Origin: Lachnospiraceae bacterium
Lineage (GTDB): Bacteria > Bacillota > Clostridia > Lachnospirales > Lachnospiraceae
DNA: 64,000 nucleotides
Reading direction: 5' to 3'
Assembly (NCBI GenBank): GCA_024681795.1
Contig: JAILAD010000078.1
Coordinates: 124,001-188,000, forward strand
Positions 10,705 to 59,117 of this stretch are shown here, piece by piece. Position 1 is the stretch's first letter. Each line of letters opens with the position of its first letter. The notes below the pieces were generated by a model, which saw only the letters and a list, made by a program, of their open reading frames with translations, made no database searches and was not told the DNA's origin. The position numbers and the translations under genes were made by a program.

Positions 10705-11772
10705 TTGAAAAAGAAAAGTCTGAAAATCGCAGTTGCAGTCGTTACCGCAGCATGTACCGTTCTTCCGCTTTTTGCAGGTTGCAGCGGCACGAATTCCCAA
10801 AAGGAAGTTTATGTTTATAACTGGGGCGAATATCTCGATCCCGATGTTCTGGATGAGTTTACCGAGGAAACCGGCATCAAAGTTATTTACGACGAATTTG
10901 AAACCAATGAAATCATGTATCCGAAGGTTGAGGCCGGTGCCGTTGCATACGATGTAATCTGCCCTTCCGATTATATGATTCAGAAAATGATTGATAATGA
11001 TTTGCTGCAGGAAATTAATTTTGACAACGTTCCGAATGCCAAAAATATCGGTGATCAGTATTATGAATCCGCCAAAGAATTCGATCCGGAAAATAAATAT
11101 GCGGTTCCCTACTGCTGGGGTACCGTGGGAATTCTCTATAACAAAACCAAAGTGGACGAGCCGATTGATTCCTGGTCAGTACTTTGGGATGAAAAATACA
11201 AAGGCGAGATTCTGATGCAGAATTCCGTTCGCGATGCATTTATGGTAGCTTTAAAACTTCAGGGACACTCCATGAACTCTCTGGACGATGCCGAACTGGA
11301 AGATGCAAAAAATCTCTTAATCGAGCAAAAACCGCTCGTACAGGCTTATGTAGTCGATCAGGTCAGGGATAAAATGATCGGAAACGAAGCTGCCATCGGT
11401 GTAATTTATTCCGGAGAAGCCATTTATACACAGCGCGAAAACTCCGATCTGGAATATGTAATTCCGAAGGAAGGAACCAACGTGTGGATTGACTGCTGGG
11501 TAATTCCGAAGAATGCACCGAACAAAGAAAATGCAGAGGCATTTATCAACTTTATATGCAAACCCGAAATTGCTTTAAAAAACTTCGATTTCATTACCTA
11601 TTCCACTCCGAATGTGGCAGCAAGGGAGTTAATCGAGGATGAGGAAATCAGAAATTCATCGATTGCTTTCCCGGATTTATCCAACTATCAGGGACTTGAG
11701 ACCTTTCATTATCTCGGGGCCGAAGGCGATCAGAAATATGCAGAACTTTGGAAACAGGTTAAATCCGAATAA
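10705..11772 (+). CDS. potD: spermidine/putrescine-binding lipoprotein
   Basis: Extracellular polyamine receptor, anchored to the membrane by lipid. The start is TTG with AGGAGG eight bases upstream. The signal peptide ends in the lipobox LFAGC, with Cys26 as the lipidated residue. The mature part starts VYVYNWGEYLDPDVLDEF, a PotD-family signature, and contains YDVICPSDYMIQKM, WGTVGILYNKTKV and WIDCWVIPKNAPN in the expected order. The 355-residue length is normal. It is the last gene of the pot operon and is followed by a strong terminator. Confidence 0.95.
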   Translation: MKKKSLKIAVAVVTAACTVLPLFAGCSGTNSQKEVYVYNWGEYLDPDVLDEFTEETGIKVIYDEFETNEIMYPKVEAGAVAYDVICPSDYMIQKMIDNDLLQEINFDNVPNAKNIGDQYYESAKEFDPENKYAVPYCWGTVGILYNKTKVDEPIDSWSVLWDEKYKGEILMQNSVRDAFMVALKLQGHSMNSLDDAELEDAKNLLIEQKPLVQAYVVDQVRDKMIGNEAAIGVIYSGEAIYTQRENSDLEYVIPKEGTNVWIDCWVIPKNAPNKENAEAFINFICKPEIALKNFDFITYSTPNVAARELIEDEEIRNSSIAFPDLSNYQGLETFHYLGAEGDQKYAELWKQVKSE

Positions 11773-11803
11773 AAAAATCTCTTATAACTAAAATATATAA
11801 CTT

Positions 11804-11836
11804 AAATAACCGGGCGTTTGCCCGGTTATTTTTTTG
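11804..11836 (+). terminator. intrinsic terminator of the pot operon
   Basis: AACCGGGC (11808-11815), loop GTTT, GCCCGGTT (11820-11827), extended by A/T pairs, then a run of T on the plus strand. It sits between convergent potD and the dehydratase-like gene. The minus-strand side has a weaker T-run but could serve that gene too. Confidence 0.9.
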
Positions 11837-11857
11837 CAACTGTATGATTTTTTCTTC

Positions 11858-13135
11858 CTAATTGCCGTTATTCAGATTCTCCTTTGCTACCGCAAGCATC
11901 AGTTTAATGCGGTTTTCCTGATTTACCCTGGTGGCACCGGGATCGTATTCTATATCCACCGCATTTACTTTCGGATTTACCTGTCTGACTTTGTTTAAGA
12001 CTCCTTTTACGGCAACATGGCAGGGAAGACATCCGAACGGCTGGACACAAACCACGTTTTCGTATCCGTGTTCCGCAAATTCCAGAACCTCGGCGGCAAC
12101 ATACCAGCCCTCTCCCATGCTGTTTGCCTTATCGATGATTCCTTCCGCTCTTTTCATAAGATCTTTTACACGTTCCGGTGCCGTAAACTGCGGAAATTCT
12201 TCAATCGCGGAAATTAAAAGATCTTCGATTCCGAAATACCATTTCATGACAATTTCCATAATCAGGCGTTTCCACGGTTTTCCGCCGAATTTCTTAAGCT
12301 CTTCCAGTGCCCCGTTCGTTTTATAGACACCGAATCCGAGCATACTGGGCATATAAGACTCACAATTCTGTTCCGCAAGGAATTCCTCCAGATGATTGTT
12401 TCCGGGTACGGAATACTTTAAGAAAAGCTCTCCGACTATGGCTACTTTGACTTTCTTTTCGTCAGTCTTTTGAATTTTTACGAATTCTTCTCCCATTGCA
12501 TGGAGATTCTTTCGCATTGCTTTTTTGGAATATCCTCTTCCGTGTTCGTATTCGCCAATCAAAAAATCAATCCATTTATCGATTAATGCATCCGTTTCAC
12601 CCTTATTCACCTCATACGGTCTGATCTGGTTCCCGAGAATCATCAGAAAATCGCCGTAAACCATGCCGGAAACTGCCATAAACAGGGTTGAAATCCGCAT
12701 CAGCACTCCGCTGTTATATTCCATAAACCAGGTATTTGCGGAAAGAAAAGGAACCTGCGGATATCCCGCTTTTTCAAATGCTTTACGCATCAGATTGATA
12801 TAATTGGAATCCCTGCATCCGCCTCCGGACTGCGTAATCATCATGGCTACTTTGTTCGGATCGTATTTACCCGATTCCATTGCGGTAAGCATCTGCCCCG
12901 TAATCAGAAGGCAGGGATAACAGATATCGTTATGTACGTACTGCAGGCCTTTCTTCAGCACTTCCGGGCCTTCGTAACCCATTAAATCGGTATTGTATCC
13001 GTCACGTGCCAGAATCGGCTTTATCAGGCGGAAATGAAGCGGTGCCATTTCCGGAATCAGTATGGTATATTTTTCCCGTTTCATTTTCAGGGAAAATTCC
13101 AGTCTTTTTTTATAATGTTTCAGAGTGGTTTTCAT
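11858..13135 (-). CDS. 2-hydroxyacyl-CoA dehydratase-like protein (separate C-terminal part of the large activase/dehydratase family)
   Basis: A 425-residue protein resembling the dehydratase-related end of the roughly 1400-residue activase proteins of Clostridia, whose exact reaction is not established. Probable iron-sulfur or metal cysteines occur in DICYPCLLITGQ, QSGGGCRDSNYI and VQPFGCLPCHVAVKG. There is no signal peptide. Its ATG overlaps the stop of the upstream 981-residue activase gene (ATGA), and the two together match the order of the single large protein. The split looks deliberate because both products have clean starts and stops, but an ancestral frameshift cannot be excluded. 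It is the last gene before a convergent terminator. Confidence 0.75.
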   Translation of the reverse strand: MKTTLKHYKKRLEFSLKMKREKYTILIPEMAPLHFRLIKPILARDGYNTDLMGYEGPEVLKKGLQYVHNDICYPCLLITGQMLTAMESGKYDPNKVAMMITQSGGGCRDSNYINLMRKAFEKAGYPQVPFLSANTWFMEYNSGVLMRISTLFMAVSGMVYGDFLMILGNQIRPYEVNKGETDALIDKWIDFLIGEYEHGRGYSKKAMRKNLHAMGEEFVKIQKTDEKKVKVAIVGELFLKYSVPGNNHLEEFLAEQNCESYMPSMLGFGVYKTNGALEELKKFGGKPWKRLIMEIVMKWYFGIEDLLISAIEEFPQFTAPERVKDLMKRAEGIIDKANSMGEGWYVAAEVLEFAEHGYENVVCVQPFGCLPCHVAVKGVLNKVRQVNPKVNAVDIEYDPGATRVNQENRIKLMLAVAKENLNNGN

Positions 13136-16077
13136 GACTGCGATTCCTCCTCAGCCTGTGCAATCGCAGCAATCAGACTTCTTAACCTGATTTTAACGGC
13201 ACCGAGATTGGTAACTTCATCGATTTTAATCTGTGTATACAGCTTTCCTTCACTTTCCAGAATGCTTCTGACTTCATCCGTCGTAATGGCATCCAGACCG
13301 CATCCGAAAGATACCAGATGAACCAGATACATATCCGGCTGACGCGATACATATGCTGCCGCAGAGAATAATCTGGCATGATAGGTCCACTGGTTTCTAA
13401 GATTCAGGGTGATTTTTTTCATGTAATAACTTACGGAATCTTCACTTATCACACCAAATCCAAGCTGTGCGATGAGTTTATGGATTCCGTGATTAATTTC
13501 CGGATCCGTATGATACGGTCTGCCCGCAAGACAGACGATTTTTTTGCCTTCCAGCCTGCATTTTTCGATGATTTCTATTGCTTTGTTGCGCATGTCATTG
13601 ACATAAAGCTCATAGGAGGCATATGCGACATCGCATGCCGAATAAACTTCCGCCTTGGAGAACTGTCCGAAATAGCGGTTCATCAGTTCCCACATGCTTT
13701 TTTTGAAATGCTTTTTGTTATGCGGTCCCAAATATTCACAGATATATTTGCTTGTTCCGAAATCACGGATATTTGCACCGATAACCTCGGGATAGCCGGC
13801 AATAACCGCACAGTTATAATGGTTTTCGCCACGTTTTTCGTTAAAATTAAAAGTCAGACACGGGAAGAAAATGGCATCCACTTTTTCCTCGATTAACTGA
13901 ATGATATGACCGTGAACCATCTTTGCAGGGAAGCACACGGTATCGGAAGGAATGGTACCCTGCCCCTTAATGTACATCTTCCGGTTGGAAAAACCGGAAA
14001 TTTTAACTTCATAATTCATGGCGGTGAAAAATGCATGCCAGAACGGAAGCATTTCATACATATTAAGAGCCATCGGAAGACCGACCGTTCCTTTCGGATT
14101 CTCGGGTTTATATTCCAGTGTTTTCTCAAAATACCGGAGTTTATATTCATAAAGATTCAGGGAATCATCGGAAGACTTCTTTGTAACCGGTTTTTCACAT
14201 TTGTTTCCGCCGATGAATTTTCTTCCGCCCGGGAAGGTATTGACGGTTAAATTGCAGTGATTGTTGCAACCGTTACAGTTTATGCTCTTAGTTTCATATG
14301 TAAAAGCATCCAGTTCTTCTTTTGAAATCAGCCCTGCGATTTTTCCGTTTTCGTTTTCGGTCTTTCCGGCTTTTGCGTTTGCTGCGTATAATGCGGCACC
14401 GTAAGCACCCATCATACCCGCAATGTCCGGTCTTATGACATTTACACCGAGTTCCTTTTCGAAAGCCCTTAAAACGGCATCGTTTAAGAAAGTTCCGCCC
14501 TGCACGACAATCTTTTCACCGAGTTCTTTTGCCGAATGAACGCGAATAACTTTATAAAGTGCATTTTTTACGACGGAAATGGAAAGACCCGCGGAAATAT
14601 CCTCTACGGATACGCCCTCTTTCTGCGCCTGCTTTACGGAGGAATTCATAAATACGGTACATCTGGAACCCAAATCCACGGGATTCTGTCCGAAAAGTCC
14701 GATTTTTGCGAAGTCGGCAATCTCATATCCCAACGAGCCTGCGAAGGTCTGTAAAAATGAACCGCATCCGGAAGAACATGCTTCGTTTAAGAAAATATTG
14801 TCGATAGCCCCGTTTGCGATTTTAAAACATTTCATGTCCTGTCCGCCGATGTCGATAATGAATTCCACATCCGGAAGGAAGAATTTGGCAGCGGTAAAAT
14901 GTGCCACCGTCTCCACGATTCCGAGATCGATTCCGAGGGCGGATTTCATCATTTCCTCGCCGTATCCGGTCACTGCCGCACATGTTACTTTTAGGTCCGG
15001 ATACCTGTCATACATCTCTTTTAAAAGTTCCACAACAATATCAATCGGTCTTCCCTGATTGGAAGTATAACGGTCATATAAAATATTTCCGTCTTTGTCA
15101 ATTAAAACGAGCTTTAACGTCGTCGAACCGGAGTCAATTCCCAAAAATACTTCTTCCGACAAATCAAAATGTTCCCTGTGTCTTACGGTATCTTTGGCAT
15201 GCCTGTCACAGAAAACACGGTATTCTTCCTCGTCCCGGAACAAAGGCTCAAGTGCACTCTCTTTCGAAAATTCCTTTTTTTCTCCGATTTTTTCCAGGGC
15301 CATGTTAAGATCAATCGGTTCATTTGCATAATAAGCGGCACCCAAAGCCACAAAAAGAAGGGAATCTTCCGGTAAGGTTCCCTTTAAATGAAGCGCCTCG
15401 TCAAAACTTTCGCGAAGATAAGACATAAACGTCAAAGGACCGCCAAGATATACGACATTTCCTTCAATCGGATGTCCCTGTGCAAGTCCGGTTATGGTCT
15501 GATTTACAATTGCCTTAAAAATACTTGCCGAGATATCTTCTTTTTTGGCTCCCTGGTTTAAAAGAGGCTGAATATCGGTTTTTGCAAATACACCGCAGCG
15601 TGATGCAATCGAATACACTTTTTCGGAGTGTTTTGCAAGCTCGTTCATATCATCGCCGGTGATATTCATTAAGGAAGCCATCTGATCGGCAAATGCACCG
15701 GTTCCTCCGGCACAGGTTCCGTTCATACGGACTTCGAGATTTCCTTTTAAGAAAAGAATTTTGGCATCTTCCCCGCCGAGTTCGATTACCACGTCGGTTT
15801 CCGGGATACGGTTTGTAACGGCAACCTTTGTGGCATAAACCTCCTGTACAAAGGGAATTCCCGCATTTTCCGCAAGTCCCATTCCGGCAGAACCGGAAAT
15901 CGCTAAGTAGACAGGCTCTTTGATATCGAATTTTTTCATGACACCTTCCATGACCGCTTTGGTCTTTTCGGTAATCATGGCAAAATGACGTTCGTAACTG
16001 TTATGAATGATTTGATTGTTCTCGTCTAAAACCACACATTTAATGGTTGTGGATCCGACATCGATTCCTATTCTCAT
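13132..16077 (-). CDS. 2-hydroxyacyl-CoA dehydratase activase-like ATPase with two BadF/BadG modules and a DUF2229-type region
   Basis: Known activases use ATP hydrolysis and a [4Fe-4S] cluster shared by a dimer to push an electron into a dehydratase. This protein carries two such ATPase modules in one chain: residues about 1-250 (GIDVGSTTIKCVVL, GTCAGGTGAF, ASRCGVFAK) and about 315-575 (GIDSGSTTLKLVLID, EACSSGCGSF, GSRCTVFMN), each with the expected pair of cluster cysteines. A cysteine-rich stretch INCNGCNNHCNLTV plus GGNKCEKP near 620-650 leads into a DUF2229-like region, with LAGRPYHTDPEINHG near 890. It lies 17 bases after the reductase gene and overlaps the dehydratase-like gene. The substrate is unknown. 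Confidence 0.82.
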   Translation of the reverse strand: MRIGIDVGSTTIKCVVLDENNQIIHNSYERHFAMITEKTKAVMEGVMKKFDIKEPVYLAISGSAGMGLAENAGIPFVQEVYATKVAVTNRIPETDVVIELGGEDAKILFLKGNLEVRMNGTCAGGTGAFADQMASLMNITGDDMNELAKHSEKVYSIASRCGVFAKTDIQPLLNQGAKKEDISASIFKAIVNQTITGLAQGHPIEGNVVYLGGPLTFMSYLRESFDEALHLKGTLPEDSLLFVALGAAYYANEPIDLNMALEKIGEKKEFSKESALEPLFRDEEEYRVFCDRHAKDTVRHREHFDLSEEVFLGIDSGSTTLKLVLIDKDGNILYDRYTSNQGRPIDIVVELLKEMYDRYPDLKVTCAAVTGYGEEMMKSALGIDLGIVETVAHFTAAKFFLPDVEFIIDIGGQDMKCFKIANGAIDNIFLNEACSSGCGSFLQTFAGSLGYEIADFAKIGLFGQNPVDLGSRCTVFMNSSVKQAQKEGVSVEDISAGLSISVVKNALYKVIRVHSAKELGEKIVVQGGTFLNDAVLRAFEKELGVNVIRPDIAGMMGAYGAALYAANAKAGKTENENGKIAGLISKEELDAFTYETKSINCNGCNNHCNLTVNTFPGGRKFIGGNKCEKPVTKKSSDDSLNLYEYKLRYFEKTLEYKPENPKGTVGLPMALNMYEMLPFWHAFFTAMNYEVKISGFSNRKMYIKGQGTIPSDTVCFPAKMVHGHIIQLIEEKVDAIFFPCLTFNFNEKRGENHYNCAVIAGYPEVIGANIRDFGTSKYICEYLGPHNKKHFKKSMWELMNRYFGQFSKAEVYSACDVAYASYELYVNDMRNKAIEIIEKCRLEGKKIVCLAGRPYHTDPEINHGIHKLIAQLGFGVISEDSVSYYMKKITLNLRNQWTYHARLFSAAAYVSRQPDMYLVHLVSFGCGLDAITTDEVRSILESEGKLYTQIKIDEVTNLGAVKIRLRSLIAAIAQAEEESQS

Positions 16078-16094
16078 GATTTAACTCTTTCAAA

Positions 16095-19043
16095 TTACAG
16101 ATTCTTGATGAATTTTAAATAACTGAGCCCGATTTTGCTCCACTTAAATCCGAGTTTGTCAAGTTCGGAAGTGGTAAATGCGTTACTCATCGGGATATTC
16201 TTCGAAGACGACGCAATCGCATTGTAGAACGAAAGCACCATAATCTCCTTATCCTGAATCTGCTCTTTTAAACTCTTTTCAAATACTTCCTTCGGAACAC
16301 GTTTTGCATGAAGCATGAATTTTTTGCAAAGTGCTTCGAGATTATATACATTCGGATTGTAAAGATTGTAAATATTGTTTACATGGTGATTTAAAGCAAG
16401 CAAAACATATGCTTCCGCACATTCGTCCACAGCCGTAAAGTCAATCGGATACTGCGCTATTTCGCTCGAATACATACGGAGCTTTAAAAATCCTTTTAAT
16501 CGTTCCAAAAATCCGTTGTCTCCCGCATTTTTCTGGAACATTCCGTCGGAACGTCTCCAGGTCAGGTTCCCGATTCGGAAAATATTGGCGCGGAGACCTT
16601 TTTCACGAGCAATGATTACGCGTTCTTCGGATTTATACTTGGAATGAATATATACGTTCTGCATGTAATGCTGACCGATATCCAGACAGAATTCGTCAAA
16701 TTTGGCATTCGGTTTACTCTGATATACGGTTCCCGCTCCGTTTACGCTTGCGGTTGACGTATGCTGAAGTACGGCGCCCGCATCCATACAAAAATCTATT
16801 ACATGCTGCGTCCCGAGTACGTTGGAACGCTCAAAATCCTCATAATGACCCGCATGATGGACGTTTGCAGCAACGTGGAACACCATGTCGATTTTATTCA
16901 CCAGAATCTGATACTCGGAATCGGTTAATCCGAAATGCGGAAGTTCAATATCTCCTTTCACGACCTTATAAGAGAAATGTTCATATTCTTTCGGGAAATA
17001 TCCCTTTAAGGTCGGTCTTAATTTATCCACGTTTCGAACCAGACATACCACTTTCAGATTCCGGTTTAAAAGTTCCCGTAATATATGAGCACCCAAAAAT
17101 CCCGTTGCCCCGGTAAGAAGAACATACTGCGGATCCGACTGGATAATCAGATTGGAATTATGACGCAGAAGGGAATTTACATCAACCTTTTCCTCTTCTT
17201 TTTCGTTGTTTGTGGAACCGTTGAGCAGCATTTCTTCAAGCATTTCGACCGTCGGATATTCATAGATATCCTGTGCCTGTACACCGATTATCGTGGCAAA
17301 TTCAAGTGCCGATAAGGAGTCTCCGCCGAGTTCGAAGAAATCATCGCGGATTCCTACGCGATTCACCTTAAGAACCTGTTCCATTGCTTCACAAAGGCGT
17401 TTTTGTTCTGCTGTGGAAGGGGAAATATACTCTGCTTTTCTCTGTTCCTTCTTTTCCTTAATCCACTTCATTACCTCATTTCGTTTGGTTTTTAACGTCG
17501 TGGTTTTCGGAAGGTCGGAAGGACGGAACGATAATCCGACCACTCTTTTGTAAGCCGGTACTTTTTCATTCAAATCACGCACACCGGATTTAATCTGACG
17601 AATGGTTCCTTCCTTCATGTTCTCCGGAACAATCAGCGCGGAAATCTTTCCGGTGTCTTCATAAACAAAAGCATCCTTTACGGAAGGAATCTTTAAAAGA
17701 TAACTCTCGATTTCCTCCGGATAAATATTCTTTCCGTTATCAAGGATAATCAGATTCTTTGCACGTCCCGTAATATAAAGGAATCCTTCGTTATCGATAT
17801 ATCCGAGGTCTCCCGTTTTGAACCAGCCCCCTTCAAAAGCGGCTTCGTTCTCTTCGGGATTTTTGTAATACGAAAGCATCACGCCGTCTCCTTTGAGCAT
17901 GATTTCTTCGTTTTTGATTTTGACATTCATATAGGAAACCGGTTTCCCCACGGAACCGATCCGGTCACATCCGGGATAATTGGCGGCAATCAACGGAGCA
18001 CATTCCGTCATACCGTAACCCTGATAAATATGAAATCCGAAACCGTTTAAAGTGGTTGCGATTTCCGGTCTTAAAGCACTTCCTCCGACTACAATTGTAG
18101 TCAGATTTCCGCCGAAGGCTTCATATATTTTTTTATATAAAGACCTTTTGGCATCAATATTGATTTTGCCGAGTGTTTTATCCACTCTCTTTGCAAATTT
18201 GACTTTCTTTTTGTATTTCGAACTGCTTACGGCCTCCATGATTTTTTTGTAAATCATTTCCGCAATTGCGGGTACAACCACCATAACAGACGGTTTAAAC
18301 CGTTTTAAATTCTCAACGACGTTTTCAAGTTTGTCGTTGATACAGATTGTGGTACCCGTATAAAGAATACCAAGATTCCCGACAGTTAATTCGAAGGTAT
18401 GATAAATCGGAAGAACACTCATGACAATCGGATTTTCCACTTCTTTGTCATATCCCATCCGGTAAATCTCGTTGATATTACTGACAATATTTTTATGAGA
18501 AATCAAAACACCTTTACCGGTTCCGGTAGTTCCGGACGTAAACAAAAGCAGGCAGGGATCTTCCGGTTTTACTTTCATTAATTTTTTACGTTCCGTACGA
18601 AGCATTTCACGGTAAGTGGTTCCGGAAAATGAATATACTTCTCTCTGACCTTTCAGTTCATCCTCAATTCCGCGAATATCTTTCATCCACGGTTCGAATT
18701 CCTCGGAAACAAATACATACTTCGCTTCACCTCTGGAAATCAGATTGAGAATTTCCTCCTGAGGAAGCATTTTATCAATCGGAATTACCACGTTTCCGCT
18801 GACAGAAGACGCAAGGAAAGTCACAATCCAGGGGTATGACGTTCCTCCGATAATTGCAATTCTGTCCCCTTTCAAACCGAGATCCTGAAAATACGTAGCC
18901 ATTGCAAATACGTCTTTTGCAAGTTCCGCAAACGTTTTATCAACGATTTTATCAGATGACAGATAGCGGTATGCAATCCTGTCCTTATAAACTTTATTGA
19001 TTTCAAAAACAAATTCCTGAAGATCCGAAAGCATTCTGTTCAT
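16095..19043 (-). CDS. adenylation - acyl carrier - thioester reductase protein (carboxylic acid reductase-like)
   Basis: Predicted to activate a carboxylic acid as acyl-AMP, load it on a phosphopantetheine arm and release it reductively as an aldehyde. Residues about 1-540 are an acyl-CoA-synthetase-type adenylation domain (FTSGTTGTGKG at 169, YGMTECAP at 343, GDLGYIDNEGFLYITGR at 411, and the late lysine region TTTLKTKRNE at 515). The carrier domain has Ser576 in ELGGDSLS. The reductase domain begins near 640 (LLTGATGFLGAH) and has Thr/Ser at 762-764 and Tyr798-Lys802 in YIHSKYKSEE. At 982 residues it is shorter than actinobacterial carboxylic acid reductases. There is no condensation domain, so it is not a peptide synthetase. 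trpS lies 22 bases upstream and the activase gene 17 bases downstream. Confidence 0.82.
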   Translation of the reverse strand: MNRMLSDLQEFVFEINKVYKDRIAYRYLSSDKIVDKTFAELAKDVFAMATYFQDLGLKGDRIAIIGGTSYPWIVTFLASSVSGNVVIPIDKMLPQEEILNLISRGEAKYVFVSEEFEPWMKDIRGIEDELKGQREVYSFSGTTYREMLRTERKKLMKVKPEDPCLLLFTSGTTGTGKGVLISHKNIVSNINEIYRMGYDKEVENPIVMSVLPIYHTFELTVGNLGILYTGTTICINDKLENVVENLKRFKPSVMVVVPAIAEMIYKKIMEAVSSSKYKKKVKFAKRVDKTLGKINIDAKRSLYKKIYEAFGGNLTTIVVGGSALRPEIATTLNGFGFHIYQGYGMTECAPLIAANYPGCDRIGSVGKPVSYMNVKIKNEEIMLKGDGVMLSYYKNPEENEAAFEGGWFKTGDLGYIDNEGFLYITGRAKNLIILDNGKNIYPEEIESYLLKIPSVKDAFVYEDTGKISALIVPENMKEGTIRQIKSGVRDLNEKVPAYKRVVGLSFRPSDLPKTTTLKTKRNEVMKWIKEKKEQRKAEYISPSTAEQKRLCEAMEQVLKVNRVGIRDDFFELGGDSLSALEFATIIGVQAQDIYEYPTVEMLEEMLLNGSTNNEKEEEKVDVNSLLRHNSNLIIQSDPQYVLLTGATGFLGAHILRELLNRNLKVVCLVRNVDKLRPTLKGYFPKEYEHFSYKVVKGDIELPHFGLTDSEYQILVNKIDMVFHVAANVHHAGHYEDFERSNVLGTQHVIDFCMDAGAVLQHTSTASVNGAGTVYQSKPNAKFDEFCLDIGQHYMQNVYIHSKYKSEERVIIAREKGLRANIFRIGNLTWRRSDGMFQKNAGDNGFLERLKGFLKLRMYSSEIAQYPIDFTAVDECAEAYVLLALNHHVNNIYNLYNPNVYNLEALCKKFMLHAKRVPKEVFEKSLKEQIQDKEIMVLSFYNAIASSSKNIPMSNAFTTSELDKLGFKWSKIGLSYLKFIKNL

Positions 19044-19065
19044 AAATTACACCCTGTAGTTTGTT

Positions 19066-20073
19066 CTATCTGATACGTTCCGGGAAGCCGACTTTCTTCT
19101 GCACTTTTCTTAATGTTTTCTTGGAATAATAATCAGCCTTTTCGCCGTTTTCTTTGATAATCTTATCAATATATGCTTTATCCGCGGAAAGTTCTGCAAA
19201 TCTTACGTGAAGAGGTTCCAAAATGTCAGCAACCGCTTCTCCGACTGCAAGTTTGAAGTCGCCGTAGCCTTTTCCCTCAAATTCTTTTTCCACTTCCTCA
19301 AAGGATTTATTCGTTACGGCGCCGTAGATTTCAATCAGATTTGAGACGCCGGGTTTGTTTTCAACATCATATCGGATTGCACTGTCGGAATCCGTTACCG
19401 CACGTTTGAATTTACGGATAATGGTATCCTTGTCATCCGTTAAGTAAATACTTGCATTCGGATTCTCATCGGATTTGGACATCTTTTTGGACGGATCCTG
19501 TAATGACATGATTTTGGCTCCCGCTTTTCCGAGATAAGGCTCCGGAATCGTAAAGACATCTCCGTAAATGGAATTGAAACGGTTTGCAATATCCCTTGTC
19601 AGTTCAAGATGCTGAAGCTGATCTTTTCCGACCGGAACGACATCCGCCTGGTATAAAAGAATGTCTGCGGCCATCAGTACGGGATAAGTAAAAAGACCTG
19701 CGTTGATATTATCCGCATGTTTTGCGGATTTATCCTTAAACTGTGTCATACGGTTTAATTCACCCATATAGGTAAAGCAGTCAAGAATCCATGCGAGTTC
19801 ACAGTGTGCGCTTGCATGAGACTGATAATAAAGGCAGTTTTTCTCAGGGTCGATTCCGGCTGCAATGTAAAGCATCAAAAGATTTCTGGCTTTTTTCCGA
19901 AGTTCCGCAGGATCCTGTCTTACCGTAATGGAATGTAAATCAACAACGGAATAAAAACATTCATACTCTTCGCTGAGTGCAACCCAGTTCTTCAATGCAC
20001 CGAGATAATTTCCGAGTGTCAAGGAACCCGTCGCCTGCATTCCGCTGAATAATACCTTTTTGTCTCCGATCAT
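19066..20073 (-). CDS. trpS: tryptophan--tRNA ligase
   Basis: Class I aminoacyl-tRNA synthetase charging tRNA-Trp. The 335-residue protein has the HIGH-equivalent TLGNYLGALKNW near residue 18 and the KMSKS loop KKMSKSDENP near 195. Other landmarks are PVLMAADILLYQAD and GKDQLQHLELTRD. The length fits the bacterial short type. The upstream gap of 51 bases is too short for a T-box leader. It sits between the debranching-like gene and the reductase gene, apparently as a passenger in one transcription unit. Confidence 0.97.
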   Translation of the reverse strand: MIGDKKVLFSGMQATGSLTLGNYLGALKNWVALSEEYECFYSVVDLHSITVRQDPAELRKKARNLLMLYIAAGIDPEKNCLYYQSHASAHCELAWILDCFTYMGELNRMTQFKDKSAKHADNINAGLFTYPVLMAADILLYQADVVPVGKDQLQHLELTRDIANRFNSIYGDVFTIPEPYLGKAGAKIMSLQDPSKKMSKSDENPNASIYLTDDKDTIIRKFKRAVTDSDSAIRYDVENKPGVSNLIEIYGAVTNKSFEEVEKEFEGKGYGDFKLAVGEAVADILEPLHVRFAELSADKAYIDKIIKENGEKADYYSKKTLRKVQKKVGFPERIR

Positions 20074-20124
20074 TTTAAAATCCTCTTTTCATTACTTATT
20101 ATTTATTTTTTTAATCACAGCAGT

Positions 20125-22020
20125 TTACTTTGCTTCAAAAATCACAACCGTTCTGGCAGGGACTTCAAAACTCACACTGCTTCCGGCGGATACGTTCACC
20201 GCATCTTCTCCTGAAGAAAGAATCTGATTCCATTTTGCTTTCTTGATCAGATTCGGCAGCGAAAATTTTCTTTCCTCCCAGTGCATATTAAAGGCAACAT
20301 AGTAAAGCCGTGCATATTTCGTTCCGAGAACGTTCCTTCTGTCACCTGAAGCTTTCTTTTCTTTTGTTGCATCCACCATTTCGGTAAACATCATTCCGAT
20401 GTGATGCTTGTCTCCGGAAAGATCTGCCTTCCAAGCTTCTTCCTGATGGAATGACAAATCCGGGAAACCGCATTGCGCAATGTCCGACATGGTCAGCTCG
20501 TCAAACAGTTTTAAGAAGGATTTGCTTTTTCGGAATGCAACCAATTGCTTCATAAATTCATAGAATTCCGTTGCACTCTTCGTGGTATTCCAATTTACAT
20601 ACCCTGTTTCATTATCCTGACAGTAGGAATTATTGTTTCCGGATTTGGAATTCATAAATTCGTCTCCGGAAAGAATTAACGGAGTTCCGGCGCCGAAGAA
20701 CAAAGCAAGCATGGCATTCTTCATCATTTTTGTTCTTAAATTCAGAATACTCTTCTTTTTGGTCTTTCCTTCCGCACCACAGTTCCATGAATAATTGGAA
20801 TTGCAACCGTCACGGTTGTTTTCTCCGTTTTCTTCGTTATGCTTGACATCATAGGAATATAAATCCGCAAGCGTAAATCCGTAATAATTTGTAATGAAAT
20901 TGACAATTGCGGTACGCTCCGGAATGCGTTTTTCCAGTCTTACAAATTCCGAAAGCATGTCGGGATCGGCTTTCAGGAATTTACGCATCTGATACATGTA
21001 TTCATCCGAATAAACACAGAGATTTTTATATTTCGGCTTACTTTCAAGAGAATATATTTCCTCTTCGGGAATGTAATCGTATAACAGCTTCGTATTCGCA
21101 AAAAGAGGATCCGTTGCAAGCAGCGAAATCGGAATTTTATTTCCCTTTAAGTGAAATCCGTCGATATGATACTTCATCACCCAATGACGGATTACATCCT
21201 GTATCATTCCCGATTTGATATGATCCGGGAAATACAGTTGCATTATCACTTCGATTCCGGCCTTATGCATTTCTCTGACAAAGCATCTCATCTCATAACA
21301 GGGATCGTCTCCTGCGGCATATGAAGCTTTCGGTGCAAAATAGAAGCCGTTCTGATATCCCCAGAAATTGACTTTTGAGGAATTTGCATCGGTTAATGCA
21401 TTATAATCGGGCGATTTCTTGCGTTCCTCCGGTTTCCGGTACTCTTCAAACTCATAACACGGCATCAGTTCGACTGCAGTAATTCCGAGCTCTTTTAAAT
21501 GTGGGATTTTTTCGACAATTCCGAGAAAGGTTCCGGGATGTGCAACTTTCGAGGAAGAATGCCTGGTAAAGCCCCTGACGTGTAAAAGATATAAAACGGA
21601 ATCCGAAAAAGGAGTACACAGAATTTTATCATCCTTCCAGTCAAAACCGTTTAAATCAAGGTCCGAGGATAGTTCATAAGAAGAATCATCCTTTACACCG
21701 AATACCTCGTTTCCGTGTATTCTGCCGGAATAAGGATCCACATATTCCAAATCCCCTTCGTAAAAACGATAGGCATAGTCATCATTCGAAATATTTTTCA
21801 CAGTCATTGAGGAAATATTTCCCATTCTGCAGCCTTCGGGAAAAGGAATTCTTGTTTTCTCCGCCGGATTTTTCTTTGATATCAATACAATCCCCGCATC
21901 TTCATCCCTGGAATTTACCATGGAAAACTGAATGCCTTCATCGCATAAAGTAGCTCCCAGCGGGAATGTATTTCCTTTTTGAATACTGAAATTATTCAAA
22001 CTTTTCACCATTTCTTTCAA
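20125..22020 (-). CDS. glycogen debranching/isoamylase-like GH13 protein, probably catalytically inactive
   Basis: The fold family is clear: an N-terminal CBM48-like part (about 10-130), then a GH13 barrel with YLLHVRGFTRHSS, LKELGITAVELMPCYEF and a near-perfect GlgX phrase around 382-415 (GFTLADLYSYDVKHNEENGE). But the catalytic signatures are lost. The nucleophile motif GFRFDLA is GFHLKGN, with Lys292 where the Asp should be. The transition-state TAHDG is TNYYG, with Tyr379-Tyr380 replacing His-Asp. The acid region AEPWD reads YDYIP, and the DVVYNH strand reads QLYFPDH. So it is probably a glucan-binding or regulatory pseudoenzyme. The start could be TTG at 22020 or ATG at 22011. It has its own good promoter and heads the trpS group. 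Confidence 0.82.
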   Translation of the reverse strand: MKEMVKSLNNFSIQKGNTFPLGATLCDEGIQFSMVNSRDEDAGIVLISKKNPAEKTRIPFPEGCRMGNISSMTVKNISNDDYAYRFYEGDLEYVDPYSGRIHGNEVFGVKDDSSYELSSDLDLNGFDWKDDKILCTPFSDSVLYLLHVRGFTRHSSSKVAHPGTFLGIVEKIPHLKELGITAVELMPCYEFEEYRKPEERKKSPDYNALTDANSSKVNFWGYQNGFYFAPKASYAAGDDPCYEMRCFVREMHKAGIEVIMQLYFPDHIKSGMIQDVIRHWVMKYHIDGFHLKGNKIPISLLATDPLFANTKLLYDYIPEEEIYSLESKPKYKNLCVYSDEYMYQMRKFLKADPDMLSEFVRLEKRIPERTAIVNFITNYYGFTLADLYSYDVKHNEENGENNRDGCNSNYSWNCGAEGKTKKKSILNLRTKMMKNAMLALFFGAGTPLILSGDEFMNSKSGNNNSYCQDNETGYVNWNTTKSATEFYEFMKQLVAFRKSKSFLKLFDELTMSDIAQCGFPDLSFHQEEAWKADLSGDKHHIGMMFTEMVDATKEKKASGDRRNVLGTKYARLYYVAFNMHWEERKFSLPNLIKKAKWNQILSSGEDAVNVSAGSSVSFEVPARTVVIFEAK

Positions 22021-44031: not shown

Positions 44032-46539
44032 TTACTGATTCTCCTGTACGTAAATACTTACGCGGCTCTGAATGATATTTGCAACATCTTCCGCGCTCTT
44101 CTGGTTATTAAAGAAAGGAGCCGCTTCTTCTTTTACGATATCGATAATCTTTTGATCGTAATTTGTGCAGTAATGTGTATTGTAAATAAATTCTTTCACT
44201 TTTTCGGCACGTTCCGGAGAAAGCGGCTGAATTTTAACATCGTCACCCTTTGCATAAGAATATGCCATTTCATCGTAATATTTTTTCTTTCCGGTTTTTT
44301 CATCATATTCGAAAGGCTTATCGCATTCGATTGCGATTTTGGCATCCAGCGCTTTTTTGGAAATCGGAATGTAATAGAGAGAATAGTCGCTTTCCTTCGG
44401 CATCTGATATTCATCGGATAAATAATATTTTATAAAATCAAATGCCTCGTCCTGATTGTCTCCAAGCGCGGAAATCGCAAATCCGAGATCCGCCATAATG
44501 ACTCCGGAAGCAGGATCGTCGCATCCCGGAAAACCTGTTAAAGCAACATTGTCACCGTACGTAACCTGTTCCAACTGGTTAAAATCACGAAAGCTGTAGA
44601 AATATTCAAGTTTGGCAAGAGCTTTTCCGTTACGGACGGATAGTTCCTTATCTTTCATATATTCTCTGTAATCATCGGCTTCCTCTATCGTTTCCGGATA
44701 TTCCTTAATCCACTTTAATGTATTGATAAAACTCTCGGAATTAAAATTACATTCTCCCGTATTTACGTCGTAATAACTGTTGGAAGAAAATACCAGGGCA
44801 TACTGAATAAGATCGTTCCTGTTGCTTCCGACAATTCCGGAACCTTTACAGTTATGCTGTTCTTCCAGTTTAATAAACTCATCCATTGTAAATCCCGGTT
44901 TTCCGTTAAGCATTGATTCCTTTACAGAAAGACCTTCAATGGAGAACTGCGGCATCAGAATATATAATTTACCGTCGTAGCTTCCGGCATCCAGAACATT
45001 GGTAAGAAAATCTTCTTTGTTGATACCGTTTTTATCAAAATAAGGATACATATCCTCAAATACACCCTTACTTGCATAAACACCGCTGTCAATCATTCCG
45101 GAAGTAATAATAATGTCAGGGCCTGCCTTTGAAAGGATATCGTTTCTGAACTGTTTTTCCGGAGCCAGCGGATCGTCTTCCGTATAAAAATCACTGTAGC
45201 TGACGGTACGAATTCTGGTATCTTCACTCTTTTTATTAAATTCAAGAATGCGCTTCTGAACATCAAAAGAAGTGGAATAAATGGAACCCAGTGTTATAAT
45301 CTTTTTATCCTTAATCTGCTCGGGCGGAACTTTCTTATAGATTCCGCTGTCACCGTTTTCCTTGTCAATCAGAAGGATTACCGTTTCCTCATCCACAAGA
45401 AATGCACTTCTGGCAAGATATCCCATGATATCGGAATCCGTAAAGTTAAAAATCATTTTTGAATCCACAACATTGTCATGAATATCAATCAGGCTTACGC
45501 CCTTGTCACTCTTGATATAAAAATCATGTCCTTTGGCAGGCATTATATTGTAACCAAGTCCGGAAGGAAGGTTGATTTCGGGTCCGATTGCTTTTGCATT
45601 CAAATCCAGTTCACAAATTGCAATATCATAGCTCTCCGTATAGACACCGATATAATATTTTCCGTTGTCCGTAACGGCGAACGTATTCAAACCGTTAATC
45701 CGGTCAGCCGGAATCTCTGAAATCTGTTTTAAGGTTTCATCGAAAAGCAATATTTTTCCGTCACCATAAACACAGAGCATTCCGTTTGAAGCCATAATAA
45801 CTCTGTCCACATTGGTAATTCCGGACAGTTTGATATCCTCTTCCGATGCATCGCTTCCGTCCGTAGAAATTTTATAAAGTTTGTAAGCGGATTCCTGTTT
45901 GACATAATCGTAAAACATCAAAACAAGCGCCAGTTTTCCGTCAGGTGTTAATGCACTTGACTCAACCGAGAATGACATATCCGATGAGTATGTTCCCTCA
46001 TATACTACCGTATCGCCGATATTGCCGTTGATATCACCGGTCACCCAGGCGAATCTAAAGGTACTTTCACCCGGTTCCGTATCTGCCGGTTCCGTATCTT
46101 CCGGTGTTTCCGTTTCGGAAGTTTCTCCTGCCGTCTCTTCGGTGATCTCCTCTTCCCGGGAAACCTCTTCAGAACCTTCTTCGGTTACCGCATCTTCCGT
46201 TTCGGAAGATTCGGAAGTTTCTGTCTCCTCTGTAATTTCCCCGCCTTCTTCAAATTCGAATTCCTCCCCGTAAGTGGATCCGTCATCGTAGTAAGGGGTA
46301 AAGAACAAAATCTGATCCCCCTGAACATACATGGAAGCGGGCTCGAAATCGAGTTCTATTTTTTTATCCAGACGGAATACTGCATCCTTGGATGCTTTTG
46401 CGTCCGAAGCTTCAGCCACAAGTCCTGAAGAATTTCCTTTAGAAGCAGTTCCGCCTTTATTACAGGAAGTAAGCGAAAATACCATTACTCCTGAAAGCAA
46501 AACGCATAATGCTTTTGAAATTAGCTGTTTCTTTTTCAT
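44032..46539 (-). CDS. extracellular solute-binding lipoprotein with propeller-like N-terminal region
   Basis: An 835-residue lipoprotein; the signal peptide ends LTSC with Cys26 lipidated. After an acidic Glu/Thr/Ser linker (about 75-150), residues about 150-400 contain repeated beta-strand phrases (PDGKLALVLMF, NGMLCVYGDGKILLFD, VTDNGKYYIGVY) like a propeller. From about 430 a family 1 solute-binding fold follows (FNKKSEDTRIRTVSYSDF, FRNDILSKAGPDIIITSG, AISALGDNQDEAFDFIKY). No permease genes are adjacent, so it is an orphan receptor. A GGAGGAG site five bases before ATG 46539 sets the start. It has its own promoter and hairpin. A paralogue lies at 51830. Confidence 0.85.
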   Translation of the reverse strand: MKKKQLISKALCVLLSGVMVFSLTSCNKGGTASKGNSSGLVAEASDAKASKDAVFRLDKKIELDFEPASMYVQGDQILFFTPYYDDGSTYGEEFEFEEGGEITEETETSESSETEDAVTEEGSEEVSREEEITEETAGETSETETPEDTEPADTEPGESTFRFAWVTGDINGNIGDTVVYEGTYSSDMSFSVESSALTPDGKLALVLMFYDYVKQESAYKLYKISTDGSDASEEDIKLSGITNVDRVIMASNGMLCVYGDGKILLFDETLKQISEIPADRINGLNTFAVTDNGKYYIGVYTESYDIAICELDLNAKAIGPEINLPSGLGYNIMPAKGHDFYIKSDKGVSLIDIHDNVVDSKMIFNFTDSDIMGYLARSAFLVDEETVILLIDKENGDSGIYKKVPPEQIKDKKIITLGSIYSTSFDVQKRILEFNKKSEDTRIRTVSYSDFYTEDDPLAPEKQFRNDILSKAGPDIIITSGMIDSGVYASKGVFEDMYPYFDKNGINKEDFLTNVLDAGSYDGKLYILMPQFSIEGLSVKESMLNGKPGFTMDEFIKLEEQHNCKGSGIVGSNRNDLIQYALVFSSNSYYDVNTGECNFNSESFINTLKWIKEYPETIEEADDYREYMKDKELSVRNGKALAKLEYFYSFRDFNQLEQVTYGDNVALTGFPGCDDPASGVIMADLGFAISALGDNQDEAFDFIKYYLSDEYQMPKESDYSLYYIPISKKALDAKIAIECDKPFEYDEKTGKKKYYDEMAYSYAKGDDVKIQPLSPERAEKVKEFIYNTHYCTNYDQKIIDIVKEEAAPFFNNQKSAEDVANIIQSRVSIYVQENQ

Positions 46540-46592
46540 TGCTCTCCTCCTACCTGTTTTCAATTAACCAAACTTATATACTTAACTTAAAT

Positions 46593-51829: not shown

Positions 51830-54064
51830 TTACTGATTTTCCTTAACGTAGATATCCACGCGGCTGTTCAGGATTTTCGTAACTTCATCCACACTCTTCT
51901 GCCCTGCAAAGTAAGGTGCCGCTTCTTCGTTGATAATATTTAAAATCTTATCTTCTTTATACTTGACGCTTTTAGCACTCTTGGCAACATTTTTTAAATA
52001 ATTCAGGTGTTCGTCACTGATTTCCTTATAAGTAAATTCTTTGCCGCCAATCTCATAAGTATTAAACTCCGGATCAACCGTTTCCCATTCTCCGGAAGAA
52101 TTCTTCGTTGCATAAGGCTGCTTTGCAGACTCTCCCATGGCATCAAATGCGGATTTCAAAACAGGAAGACCATTCTGGCCGCTCATTCCGTTATCAATCT
52201 GCGTCTGGAAATCCGGACTGATTAACATTTTTACAAAATCGAATGCACCGTCTTTATCTTTGCTCTTGGAAGAAATTGCAACAGAAACGGAAGGATGGAT
52301 AACAGGTTTGGAATCGCCCGCAGCATTCGGGAATCCGATCAAAGCAACTTCCCTGCCGTACATACTCTGCTCCAGACGACATGTTTCCCTGAACGAACCC
52401 ATACCGATATTGTTGGTTAACATCTGATCATTTGCAAAAGCACCAAGATAGTTGATGGAGGCAAATCTTTTTTCGACTTCATTCTGATCTGCGGCAAATT
52501 CATTTGCAAATACCAGTACTTTCTTAAAATCATCCGTGTCAAAACTGCATTTTCCGGTCTTTACATCGAGGAAATCCGGAGTATTGAATGCCAGGGAATT
52601 CTCGATTATATTGTCTTTTGTAAGATAATACATACTGGTTCCGGAACAGTTGAATTTCTTTTCAAGCGCCATATATTCGTCAATCGAAATACTGTTGTTG
52701 GCATTAACAAATTCAGGTTTAATCAGGAAACCGTGAATATAATAGAACGGAATCAGATTATATAATTTACCGTCCTTGGAACCGGCTTCGATAATATTTT
52801 CCATATAATCGCTCTTATTTAATCCGGCCTTTTCCATAAGCGGAGTCATATCCGCAAAAAGACCTTTGTTAATATAAGATTCCACGTTCGGAAGACTGTC
52901 TGTCATAATGATATCCGGGATATTTCCGGAAGCCACGTCTCCTTTAAATATCTTTTCTCCGCCTTTATAATCGGTTTCCTGAGTATTATACTCGGAGTAA
53001 TCAATTACGCGGATCTTGTATTTTGTATTTTCTTTATTAAATTTTGTGATAATCTTTTTGGTCTCGGCAGTTATATAGAATCCGCCAAGTGTTAAAAACT
53101 CTTTATCGGGGACCTCCGAAGGCGAAACCTTTTTGAAAATCCCGGTATACGCGTTCTCCGAAAAATAATCCGTCATAACAAGTGCCGTGGAGGCATCAAA
53201 CATAAATACATTCACATATTCACTTGCATCAACATCGGAGTCCATAAAATTAAACACTTCCGTCGTTTTATTCTGGCTTAAATTAACGCCGGACACACCG
53301 TTTCCGCTGTTAACGATATAGAAATCATATCCTTCTCCGCTGATTGCATTACCGTTCTTGCTCTGATAAGGAATGGCCTCACCGATTGTACCGTTTACAA
53401 GATCTACCTTATGAACCGTATTTCCGTTATCGCCGTTCACAAATATAAGCAGGTCTTTTCCGTCTTCAAGAGTATCCGACCATGTTTGTGAAGCATTTGT
53501 ATTGCTGATTGTTTTCTTTTTATTCAGATTTGCATCAAATATTTCCAGATCGGATTCCATACGGACAACAATTGTTCCGTCTGCCATACATGTAAGGCCG
53601 AAAGGACTGGTTTCTCCGATATGCGCTCTTCCGAGTTCTTTTCCGTCAGATGAGATATGAACAAGGTCATAGGAAAACTCATCATTTTCGTAATCGGCAA
53701 GACCGTCAATACCGTAAACCGAACCATCCGCACCGATTTCTACAGTCTGCGTGGAAATATAATTATTCTCCGATGCAAGTTTATAAGATACGGAAGGAGT
53801 TAAATTTCCGTCTTTGCTGCCCAATGAAAACTGAAAGACACCGGGATCGGAACGCATTAAGATAAAGCGGTTGGCATCCGTGTCCGCAGCTGTCGGCGAA
53901 AAATCCGGAGTAATCTCCTTATCCATGCGAAATACGGCATTTTTCGCATTTTTCTTGGCTTCAGCAGCAACGGAAGCATTGTTCATATTGCAACCGGCCA
54001 GTGAAACCATCATAAGTCCGGCAAGAGCAAGGCTTAAACCTCTCACCAAATAACCCTTTTTCAT
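51830..54064 (-). CDS. extracellular solute-binding lipoprotein, paralogue of the one at 44032
   Basis: A 744-residue lipoprotein; lipobox SLAGC with Cys25. The chain matches the gene at 44032: both have NAVFRMDKEI/DAVFRLDKKI just after the lipid anchor, a propeller-like part (GNGVSGVNLSQN, DGSVYGIDGL), a solute-binding part (SAVSSKSKDKDGAFDFVKMLI-like), and similar ends (VDIYVKENQ/VSIYVQENQ). It lacks the long acidic linker. ATG 54064 is chosen since GGAGG (54071-54075) is six bases upstream; another ATG is one codon earlier. No transporter genes are adjacent. Strong promoter at 54109-54137. Confidence 0.85.
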   Translation of the reverse strand: MKKGYLVRGLSLALAGLMMVSLAGCNMNNASVAAEAKKNAKNAVFRMDKEITPDFSPTAADTDANRFILMRSDPGVFQFSLGSKDGNLTPSVSYKLASENNYISTQTVEIGADGSVYGIDGLADYENDEFSYDLVHISSDGKELGRAHIGETSPFGLTCMADGTIVVRMESDLEIFDANLNKKKTISNTNASQTWSDTLEDGKDLLIFVNGDNGNTVHKVDLVNGTIGEAIPYQSKNGNAISGEGYDFYIVNSGNGVSGVNLSQNKTTEVFNFMDSDVDASEYVNVFMFDASTALVMTDYFSENAYTGIFKKVSPSEVPDKEFLTLGGFYITAETKKIITKFNKENTKYKIRVIDYSEYNTQETDYKGGEKIFKGDVASGNIPDIIMTDSLPNVESYINKGLFADMTPLMEKAGLNKSDYMENIIEAGSKDGKLYNLIPFYYIHGFLIKPEFVNANNSISIDEYMALEKKFNCSGTSMYYLTKDNIIENSLAFNTPDFLDVKTGKCSFDTDDFKKVLVFANEFAADQNEVEKRFASINYLGAFANDQMLTNNIGMGSFRETCRLEQSMYGREVALIGFPNAAGDSKPVIHPSVSVAISSKSKDKDGAFDFVKMLISPDFQTQIDNGMSGQNGLPVLKSAFDAMGESAKQPYATKNSSGEWETVDPEFNTYEIGGKEFTYKEISDEHLNYLKNVAKSAKSVKYKEDKILNIINEEAAPYFAGQKSVDEVTKILNSRVDIYVKENQ

Positions 54065-54108
54065 CATTTTCCTCCTTGAAATTTATGTAAACAAAACTTC
54101 AAATTAAA

Positions 54109-56615: not shown

Positions 56616-56649
56616 AGTCATTTCTCCTTATTCATTGAATTGACAAGTA

Positions 56650-59065: not shown

Positions 59066-59099
59066 TGTAATTCTCCTCGTAAATATCATTTCTTTCACA

Positions 59100-59117
59100 A
59101 GAATCCTTAAGGATTCT
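59100..59117. other. 18-bp palindrome containing the stop codon of the large surface protein
   Basis: AGAATCCTTAAGGATTCT is perfectly self-complementary; its centre TTAA carries the TAA stop. The lipoprotein gene starts 35 bases downstream. It could form a hairpin with no loop gap only in part, or be a protein-binding site. Confidence 0.5.

Follow-up and report, generated by a model that had tools for sequence, protein, structure and literature searches.

A three-gene unit on the minus strand of a Lachnospiraceae bacterium genome (GenBank assembly GCA_024681795.1, contig JAILAD010000078.1, positions 124,001 to 188,000; this 64,000-nucleotide stretch is the window) is probably a second and specialised module for ether lipids, one that has its own aldehyde-forming partner, a reading that we place at a probability of roughly 0.6. 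The first gene encodes ATR, in which an acyl-AMP ligase, a carrier and a thioester reductase are joined in one chain. The second and third encode PlsA2 and PlsR2, an activase/dehydratase pair that is, judged by its sequence, paralogous to the anaerobic plasmalogen synthase PlsA/PlsR. The first-pass annotation of the window had described an operon of five genes, counting also trpS and a GH13-like protein. The linkage was found to recur for ATR, PlsA2 and PlsR2 and not for the other two, and the operon should be trimmed to these three genes.

We assessed the distribution of the unit in a genus sample of 31 genomes (ATR called at E <= 1e-100), a family sample of 120 Lachnospiraceae genera and a class sample of 291 genomes. 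ATR was present in 27 of the 31 genus genomes, and all 27 also carried a PlsA of the window type, some as partial genes at contig ends (counts uncorrected for common descent). The four genomes lacking ATR (G123, G134, G139 and G149) possessed the other PlsA type only (window type, 0/4). Among the family genera, full-length ATR was found in the window's own genome (G000), G106 and G089, and the window-type PlsA (at least 70% identity) occurred in the same three genera, that is in 3/3 with ATR and 0/117 without, again uncorrected for common descent. In G089 the PlsA match lies on a separate contig (C197), with the gene start seen at the end of contig C191. The co-occurrence in genus and family genomes supports the earlier claim that the reductase and the activase/dehydratase belong together; rare joint occurrence of their homologues would have spoken against it, and the opposite was found in the genomes examined.

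PlsA2 was encoded directly downstream of ATR, on the same strand, in 28 of 30 ATR loci (the window and 29 others). At one of the remaining two (L062) the contig ends inside ATR; the other (L060) is a 4.4-kb contig that carries part of PlsA2 in inverted orientation together with a second fragment of ATR, and looks like an assembly chimaera. PlsR2 came next in all 24 loci whose contig extends beyond PlsA2. Pairwise protein distances across 22 loci gave r values of 0.979 for ATR and PlsA2, 0.93 for ATR and PlsR2 and 0.945 for PlsA2 and PlsR2; these were obtained with no control gene and therefore show shared history, not selection. It was also noted that the genome of locus L062 (G145, contig C84) has a second, more divergent partial ATR at a contig end.

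The block was encountered in several gene contexts. It stands behind trpS in the window and in L069 to L073, and behind an amidohydrolase gene (named by Pfam) in 15 of 27 loci, 13 of which have lspA-like and asnA-like genes (names from our own reading) further upstream. Other contexts were seen at L034, L035 and L075 to L077, and no further gene recurred beside the block across all contexts. A clean empty site was identified in a sister species (L158 in G134), where potD and trpS are 97 bases apart compared to 7,312 in the window; L158:4902-5189 matches window positions 11485-11772 and L158:5287-5579 matches 19085-19377. At least once, therefore, the three genes were gained or lost together, as a single piece.

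The window's genome encodes another split PlsA/PlsR pair (G000:C54, L003:8398-12765), whose PlsA is 53% identical to PlsA2. The usual state in Lachnospiraceae is a fused PlsA. A PlsA match was obtained in 108 of the 120 genera at E <= 1e-250 (E <= 1e-200 for the class sample; more distant homologues are uncounted at these thresholds), and the matches have open frames of more than 1,250 residues except in G000, G030 and G075 and in the short frames of G018, G023 and G045. In the other two ATR genera, G106 and G089, a fused PlsA was present beside the window-type PlsA. In an 84-sequence PlsA tree, the split proteins formed one clade (53 sequences, support 1.0), inside which the 24 ATR-linked proteins formed a single clade (support 1.0). 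Their nearest relatives were four unlinked split proteins (L124, L159, L160 and L161; 28 sequences together, support 1.0), and the other PlsA of the genus fell into a separate clade of nine. The ATR-linked clade was also recovered in a smaller 45-sequence PlsA tree (support 0.916, with one unlinked split protein as sister) and, on a long stem, in a 44-sequence PlsR tree (support 0.815).

Active-site changes distinguish the ATR-linked PlsR proteins. With the window's own sequence excluded, QSGGGCRDSNY was found in 22 of 22 readable sequences and CLPCH in 21 of 21. Among the 40 PlsR matches of the class sample, QTGGGCRA(S/T)NY was found in 36/36 readable sequences (four failing the search expression) and CLPNH in 38/38 (two failing), and the ATR-linked signatures occurred in none of the unlinked readable ones (0/36 and 0/38). 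The PlsR proteins of L159 to L161 and L124 likewise carried the common-type signature. PlsR2 thus has GGGCRDS and CLPCH in place of the GGGCRA(S/T) and CLPNH of unnamed PlsR relatives. The changed positions in PlsR2 are two and three residues past the conserved cysteines 107 and 369, and the additional cysteine 372 might serve as a further cluster ligand or alter the pocket.

We further characterized the pair itself. PlsA2 possesses two BcrAD_BadFG stretches (PF01869) and a DUF2229 domain (PF09989, 4e-69) in one chain. Thirteen of its cysteines (C122, 161, 417, 434, 438, 473, 601, 604, 608, 627, 715, 756 and 926) were kept in 24/24 ATR-linked and 21/21 other sequences, and cysteines C72, 107 and 369 of PlsR2 were common to the 21 other PlsR sequences compared; by analogy with the family, these residues presumably bind clusters. 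PlsR2 gave no Pfam match at 1e-3, its DUF2229 and HGD-D signals being sub-threshold, and no match in sequence searches and alignment against solved structures. An AlphaFold2 model built from a 30-sequence alignment (pLDDT 85.9, pTM 0.88) gave 15 Foldseek matches at E <= 0.001, all within the superfamily of hydroxyacyl-CoA dehydratases (HAD), benzoyl-CoA reductases (BCR) and double-cubane proteins (DCCP). These included 2-hydroxyisocaproyl-CoA dehydratase, benzoyl-CoA reductases and double-cubane proteins, at modest TM-scores of about 0.4-0.5. The predicted fold of PlsR2 is thus of the HAD/BCR type, and such a partner encoded beside the activase is what membership of the PlsA/PlsR family requires.

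The available part of PMC12838417 reports that plsA-plsR of Clostridium perfringens produce plasmalogens, that PlsA/PlsR alone are enough to do so in E. coli, and that a single gene does so in other bacteria from which it was cloned. The PlsA2/PlsR2 half of the unit is therefore of a known kind. Of the undescribed acyl-modification pathway proposed in the first-pass annotation, the linkage of reductase and activase is supported, and a role in modifying lipid acyl groups is likely. As in the C. perfringens synthase (CPE1194/1195), activase domains and DUF2229 share one protein and a second subunit of predicted HAD/BCR type is encoded directly downstream. The conserved cysteines are alike among the unnamed relatives compared. 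PlsA2/PlsR2 differ in being an extra paralogue in a genome with another pair, and in being linked to ATR. Fused PlsA proteins are known in Enterococcus, Lactococcus and Bifidobacterium. As described in the part of PMC9702350 at hand, such reductases turn the sn-1 acyl ester of diacyl lipids into a vinyl ether. Since the pair is, by sequence, a PlsA/PlsR paralogue, the expected substrate would be a glycerolipid and not a free acyl-thioester; the earlier description of a split activase/dehydratase, from a family working on acyl-thioesters, is corrected to this extent.

The layout of PlsA2 is also like that of Ger, the glycerol ester reductase of Thermotoga and Desulfatibacillum, a PlsA homologue with two activation domains, although the D. 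alkenivorans Ger is a single chain of 159 kDa (PMC11150832, in the part available). Two activation domains are connected with the alkyl-ether-making Ger and one with plasmalogens in the accessible text of PMC13274423, which adds that assignment to Ger or to PlsA is not possible from sequence alone, and the legend to Figure 8 of PMC12838417 gives PlsA two activation domains as well. The two-domain layout of PlsA2 therefore does not decide between Ger and PlsA.

In ATR, the Pfam domains AMP-binding, PP-binding and NAD_binding_4 extend over residues 17-393, 549-606 and 643-878. ATR has the adenylation-carrier-reductase (A-T-R) architecture, with an AMP-binding domain, a PP-binding serine motif and a reductase with GxxGxxG and YxxxK, and the domain descriptions of the first-pass annotation agree with the Pfam and NCBIfam results. 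Across 28 aligned rows (the window plus 27 other loci), LFTSGTTG, TGDLG, GGDS, LTGATG, TSTAS and the Y and K of YxxxK were invariant, gaps ignored; we take these to be the ligase, carrier and reductase motifs. The A-T-R order and the expected reaction type are those of carboxylic acid reductases and of A-T-R enzymes resembling nonribosomal peptide synthetases (NRPS), but ATR scores far under the carboxylic acid reductase equivalog NF041592 (156 bits, cut-off 1300). Its score for the thioester reductase domain TIGR01746 was 168.3 bits, under the cut-off of 213.35 though with E = 2.8e-49. At 10 loci of ligase-only relatives, a gene resembling acyl carrier protein (ACP) was found beside the ligase in four (L147, L149, L151 and L154, with L149 called by eye and L154 by Pfam) and in none of the other six.

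Beyond the genus, ATR appeared narrowly distributed. It passed 1e-110 in two of the 291 class-sample genomes (at most two candidates scored per genome), G000 and G458, and the G458 match covers the ligase part only, so no full-length ATR was found in that sample outside G000. Weaker matches in 39 other family genomes (26-48% identity) were ligase-only proteins or lay within longer multidomain frames. By contig number, none was on the contig of a family PlsA match, and three of these genomes (G039, G095 and G114) had no such PlsA match. Of 40 class PlsA loci fetched, one (L174) had no readable PlsA, and the other 39 had no ATR-like gene within six open reading frames (ORFs) on each side. Locus L185 bears, on the opposite strand, an acyl ligase of weak similarity, and L184 and L192 have a patatin-like gene nearby. 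The 291-genome sample thus gave no sign of a wide class-level spread of full-length ATR, and together with the 39 loci this makes the pairing of ATR and PlsA narrow so far. The named records with full-length ATR are Lachnospiraceae metagenome-assembled genomes RUG12880, RUG13462, RUG14833 and UBA7027, of which the RUG prefix presumably denotes rumen genomes. In the open-access literature, searches of titles and abstract starts turned up no pairing of PlsA/PlsR and an A-T-R protein, and the terms 'thioester reductase' and 'plasmalogen' came together in no paper.

For the second PlsA/PlsR pair found in the genus (that of PlsA1), we read the neighbourhood at 11 loci. In four (L125, L126, L129 and L130) the pair is preceded by genes for a PlsC-type acyltransferase, an acyl ligase, an ACP and a patatin, in that order (L125:1425-9279; L126:1460-9422); these names, including the AMP-ligase and PP-binding calls, come from Pfam in L126 alone. 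At three others a patatin-like gene precedes PlsA1 with no ligase or ACP in the run (L131:10118-10969, L155:8685 and L156:13386). The full run looks like phospholipid deacylation, reactivation and reacylation beside an ether-forming enzyme, and it is possible that it represents a phospholipid remodelling operon for plasmalogens, a parallel to the ATR unit in lipid remodelling. ATR would correspond to the ligase and carrier of this run joined to a reductase, yielding an aldehyde rather than a transferable acyl group.

For the ATR module, we infer a fatty-acid substrate, an aldehyde product, an ether-lipid end product and the following order of steps. ATR would activate a long-chain fatty acid with ATP, load it onto its own phosphopantetheine arm and release the chain as an aldehyde with NAD(P)H. 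The two ATPase domains of PlsA2 would drive low-potential electrons into an iron-sulfur pair formed by the DUF2229 domain and PlsR2, which would convert a glycerolipid intermediate, by reduction and dehydration, into a vinyl or alkyl ether. One possibility is that the aldehyde provides the chain by forming a hemiacetal with a lysolipid, which PlsA2/PlsR2 then process; another is that it is a linked product arising from the same remodelling of the membrane. A precedent is ElbD of Myxococcus xanthus, which the available text of PMC9131029 describes as a protein with reductase, acyl ligase, ACP and acyltransferase parts that is required for ether lipids, the mutant being without i15:0 aldehyde. 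The likeness to ATR is by description, and ElbD differs in its extra acyltransferase domain, its N-terminal reductase and its aerobic host. A possible but doubtful elaboration is an aldehyde-first anaerobic route, in which the ATR aldehyde adds to a lysophospholipid or other lipid alcohol and the diverged PlsA2/PlsR2, with the extra cysteine next to its cluster, dehydrates or reduces the hemiacetal, which would give these bacteria two separate anaerobic ether-lipid pathways with different substrates.

Several observations weigh against a specialised ether-lipid module. ATR reached no curated NCBIfam cut-off among the 25 matches listed, and its best solved-structure matches by sequence were NRPS proteins, the AusA reductase domain among them. 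An in-frame stop interrupts the ATR orthologue at L069 (G144; L069:7552-10497), which reflects either an error in sequencing or the onset of decay. The absence of ATR-like genes at the 39 class loci belongs here as well, as does the low estimated completeness of two of the four block-less genus genomes (74% for G139 and 70% for G149, compared to 100% for G123 and G134), and much of the ATR-PlsA2 linkage is common descent because 15 of the 27 loci share one gene context. Neither the lipid-gene run nor a patatin precedes the other pair in 4 of 11 loci, the window's genome among them. By the available part of PMC9131029, ElbD was not shown to act as a fatty-acyl reductase in vitro. The sufficiency of PlsA/PlsR in E. 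coli counts in the same direction, and with a domain set and cysteines as in other PlsA/PlsR it would fit PlsA2/PlsR2 as a canonical plasmalogen synthase on diacyl phospholipids, with ATR in a purely auxiliary role, recycling free fatty acids or setting the level of aldehyde. We regard this as unlikely, since another pair is already in the genome and the other two ATR genera also have a fused PlsA, the fixed changes beside the cluster cysteines of ATR-linked PlsR are absent from the others read, and the co-occurrence of ATR and PlsA2 is strict.

The A-T-R order also recalls NRPS-like reductases, and the top-scoring NCBIfam model for ATR was aureusimine synthetase, an NRPS; taken with the structure matches and the narrow distribution, this would suit a unit making a dedicated small molecule, such as a lipid aldehyde signal or a reduced natural product, instead of a bulk membrane ether lipid. 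Against this stand the 25 NCBIfam models listed, a majority of them acyl-CoA ligases and many of these fatty-acid ones, the lack of a further gene recurring beside the block in all contexts, and the action of PlsA relatives of known function on glycerolipids, and we judge it rather improbable. Hardly any credence is given to a single functional operon of all five genes in which the GH13 pseudoenzyme acts as a regulator. Strand and short gaps fit it, and the GH13-trpS-ATR order also occurs in four close relatives (L069 to L072). However, the GH13-like protein is found in 29 of the 31 genus genomes, including the complete, block-less G123 and G134, where trpS and GH13 adjoin, and it lies on a different contig from ATR in 21 of the 26 genomes with both. 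The block occurs elsewhere without trpS or GH13, and trpS adjoins potD without the block in L158. These contexts rule out the two genes as unit members, a claim of the first-pass annotation that has to be dropped; the pseudoenzyme is a neighbour and not a partner.

The GH13-like protein resembles isoamylase and GlgX and can be aligned with chloroplast isoamylase 1. In it, DGFRF is replaced by DGFHL, with K as the next residue, and AHDGF by NYYGF, at places that we take to be GH13 catalytic residues. Its best curated score was 299 bits, under half of the GlgX cut-off of 640.9. The motif changes therefore bear out the earlier description of a dead debranching-like protein, as does the sub-cut-off score. 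Its retention across the genus suggests a non-catalytic role, and we would liken it to plant isoamylase 2.

The layout of the region is given in the table below. All five ORFs in 11858-22020 are intact. They lie as first described, on one strand and with three gaps in the range of 17-51 bases (GH13 to trpS 51, trpS to ATR 22, ATR to PlsA2 17); the last pair overlaps by 4 bases instead of being spaced. A promoter and terminator scan was uninformative, with 23 promoter-like sites where 24.0 were expected and 12 terminator-like sites where 11.5 were expected.

Table. Features of the ATR-PlsA2-PlsR2 region, in window coordinates.
Feature	Position	Strand	Basis
GlgX/isoamylase-like pseudoenzyme, neighbour outside the unit	20125..22020	-	GlgX-like below cut-off; catalytic motifs replaced
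trpS, upstream neighbour outside the unit	19066..20073	-	TIGR00233 above cut-off
ATR, acyl-AMP ligase, phosphopantetheine carrier and thioester reductase, 982 aa; first of the three-gene unit	16095..19043	-	Pfam AMP-binding, AMP-binding_C, PP-binding, NAD_binding_4
PlsA2, double activase resembling PlsA and bearing a DUF2229 reductase domain, 981 aa	13132..16077	-	Two stretches of PF01869 plus PF09989
PlsR2, PlsR/HgdB-like second subunit, 425 aa	11858..13135	-	Predicted fold; overlaps PlsA2 by 4 bases
Short convergent potD/plsR2 intergenic region, GC-rich hairpin then T run	11773..11857	.	Read by eye; absent from the terminator-scan list

Elsewhere in the window, three large minus-strand ORFs (59107-63975, 54159-56621 and 57815-59098; 1622, 820 and 427 aa) had no Pfam match at 1e-5. 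In two further proteins, 44032-46563 (843 aa) and 51830-54067 (745 aa), solute-binding domains begin at residues 441-472 and 335 respectively, and these proteins therefore have long N-terminal parts without a Pfam match.

According to the part of PMC13274423 available, Bacillota genomes carry several PlsA homologues, sequence cannot tell which ether each makes, and the role of some is unclear. ATR gives one of these paralogues a fixed partner, a predictable reaction and a sequence signature, and its role thereby becomes directly testable. The unit is also of interest in view of the old finding that bacteria can draw on long-chain aldehydes to make plasmalogens, though the known enzyme starts from diacyl lipids (PMC9702350, as far as available). 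As a variant of the PlsA/PlsR ether-lipid system, it hints at an undescribed route to ether lipids in some Lachnospiraceae.

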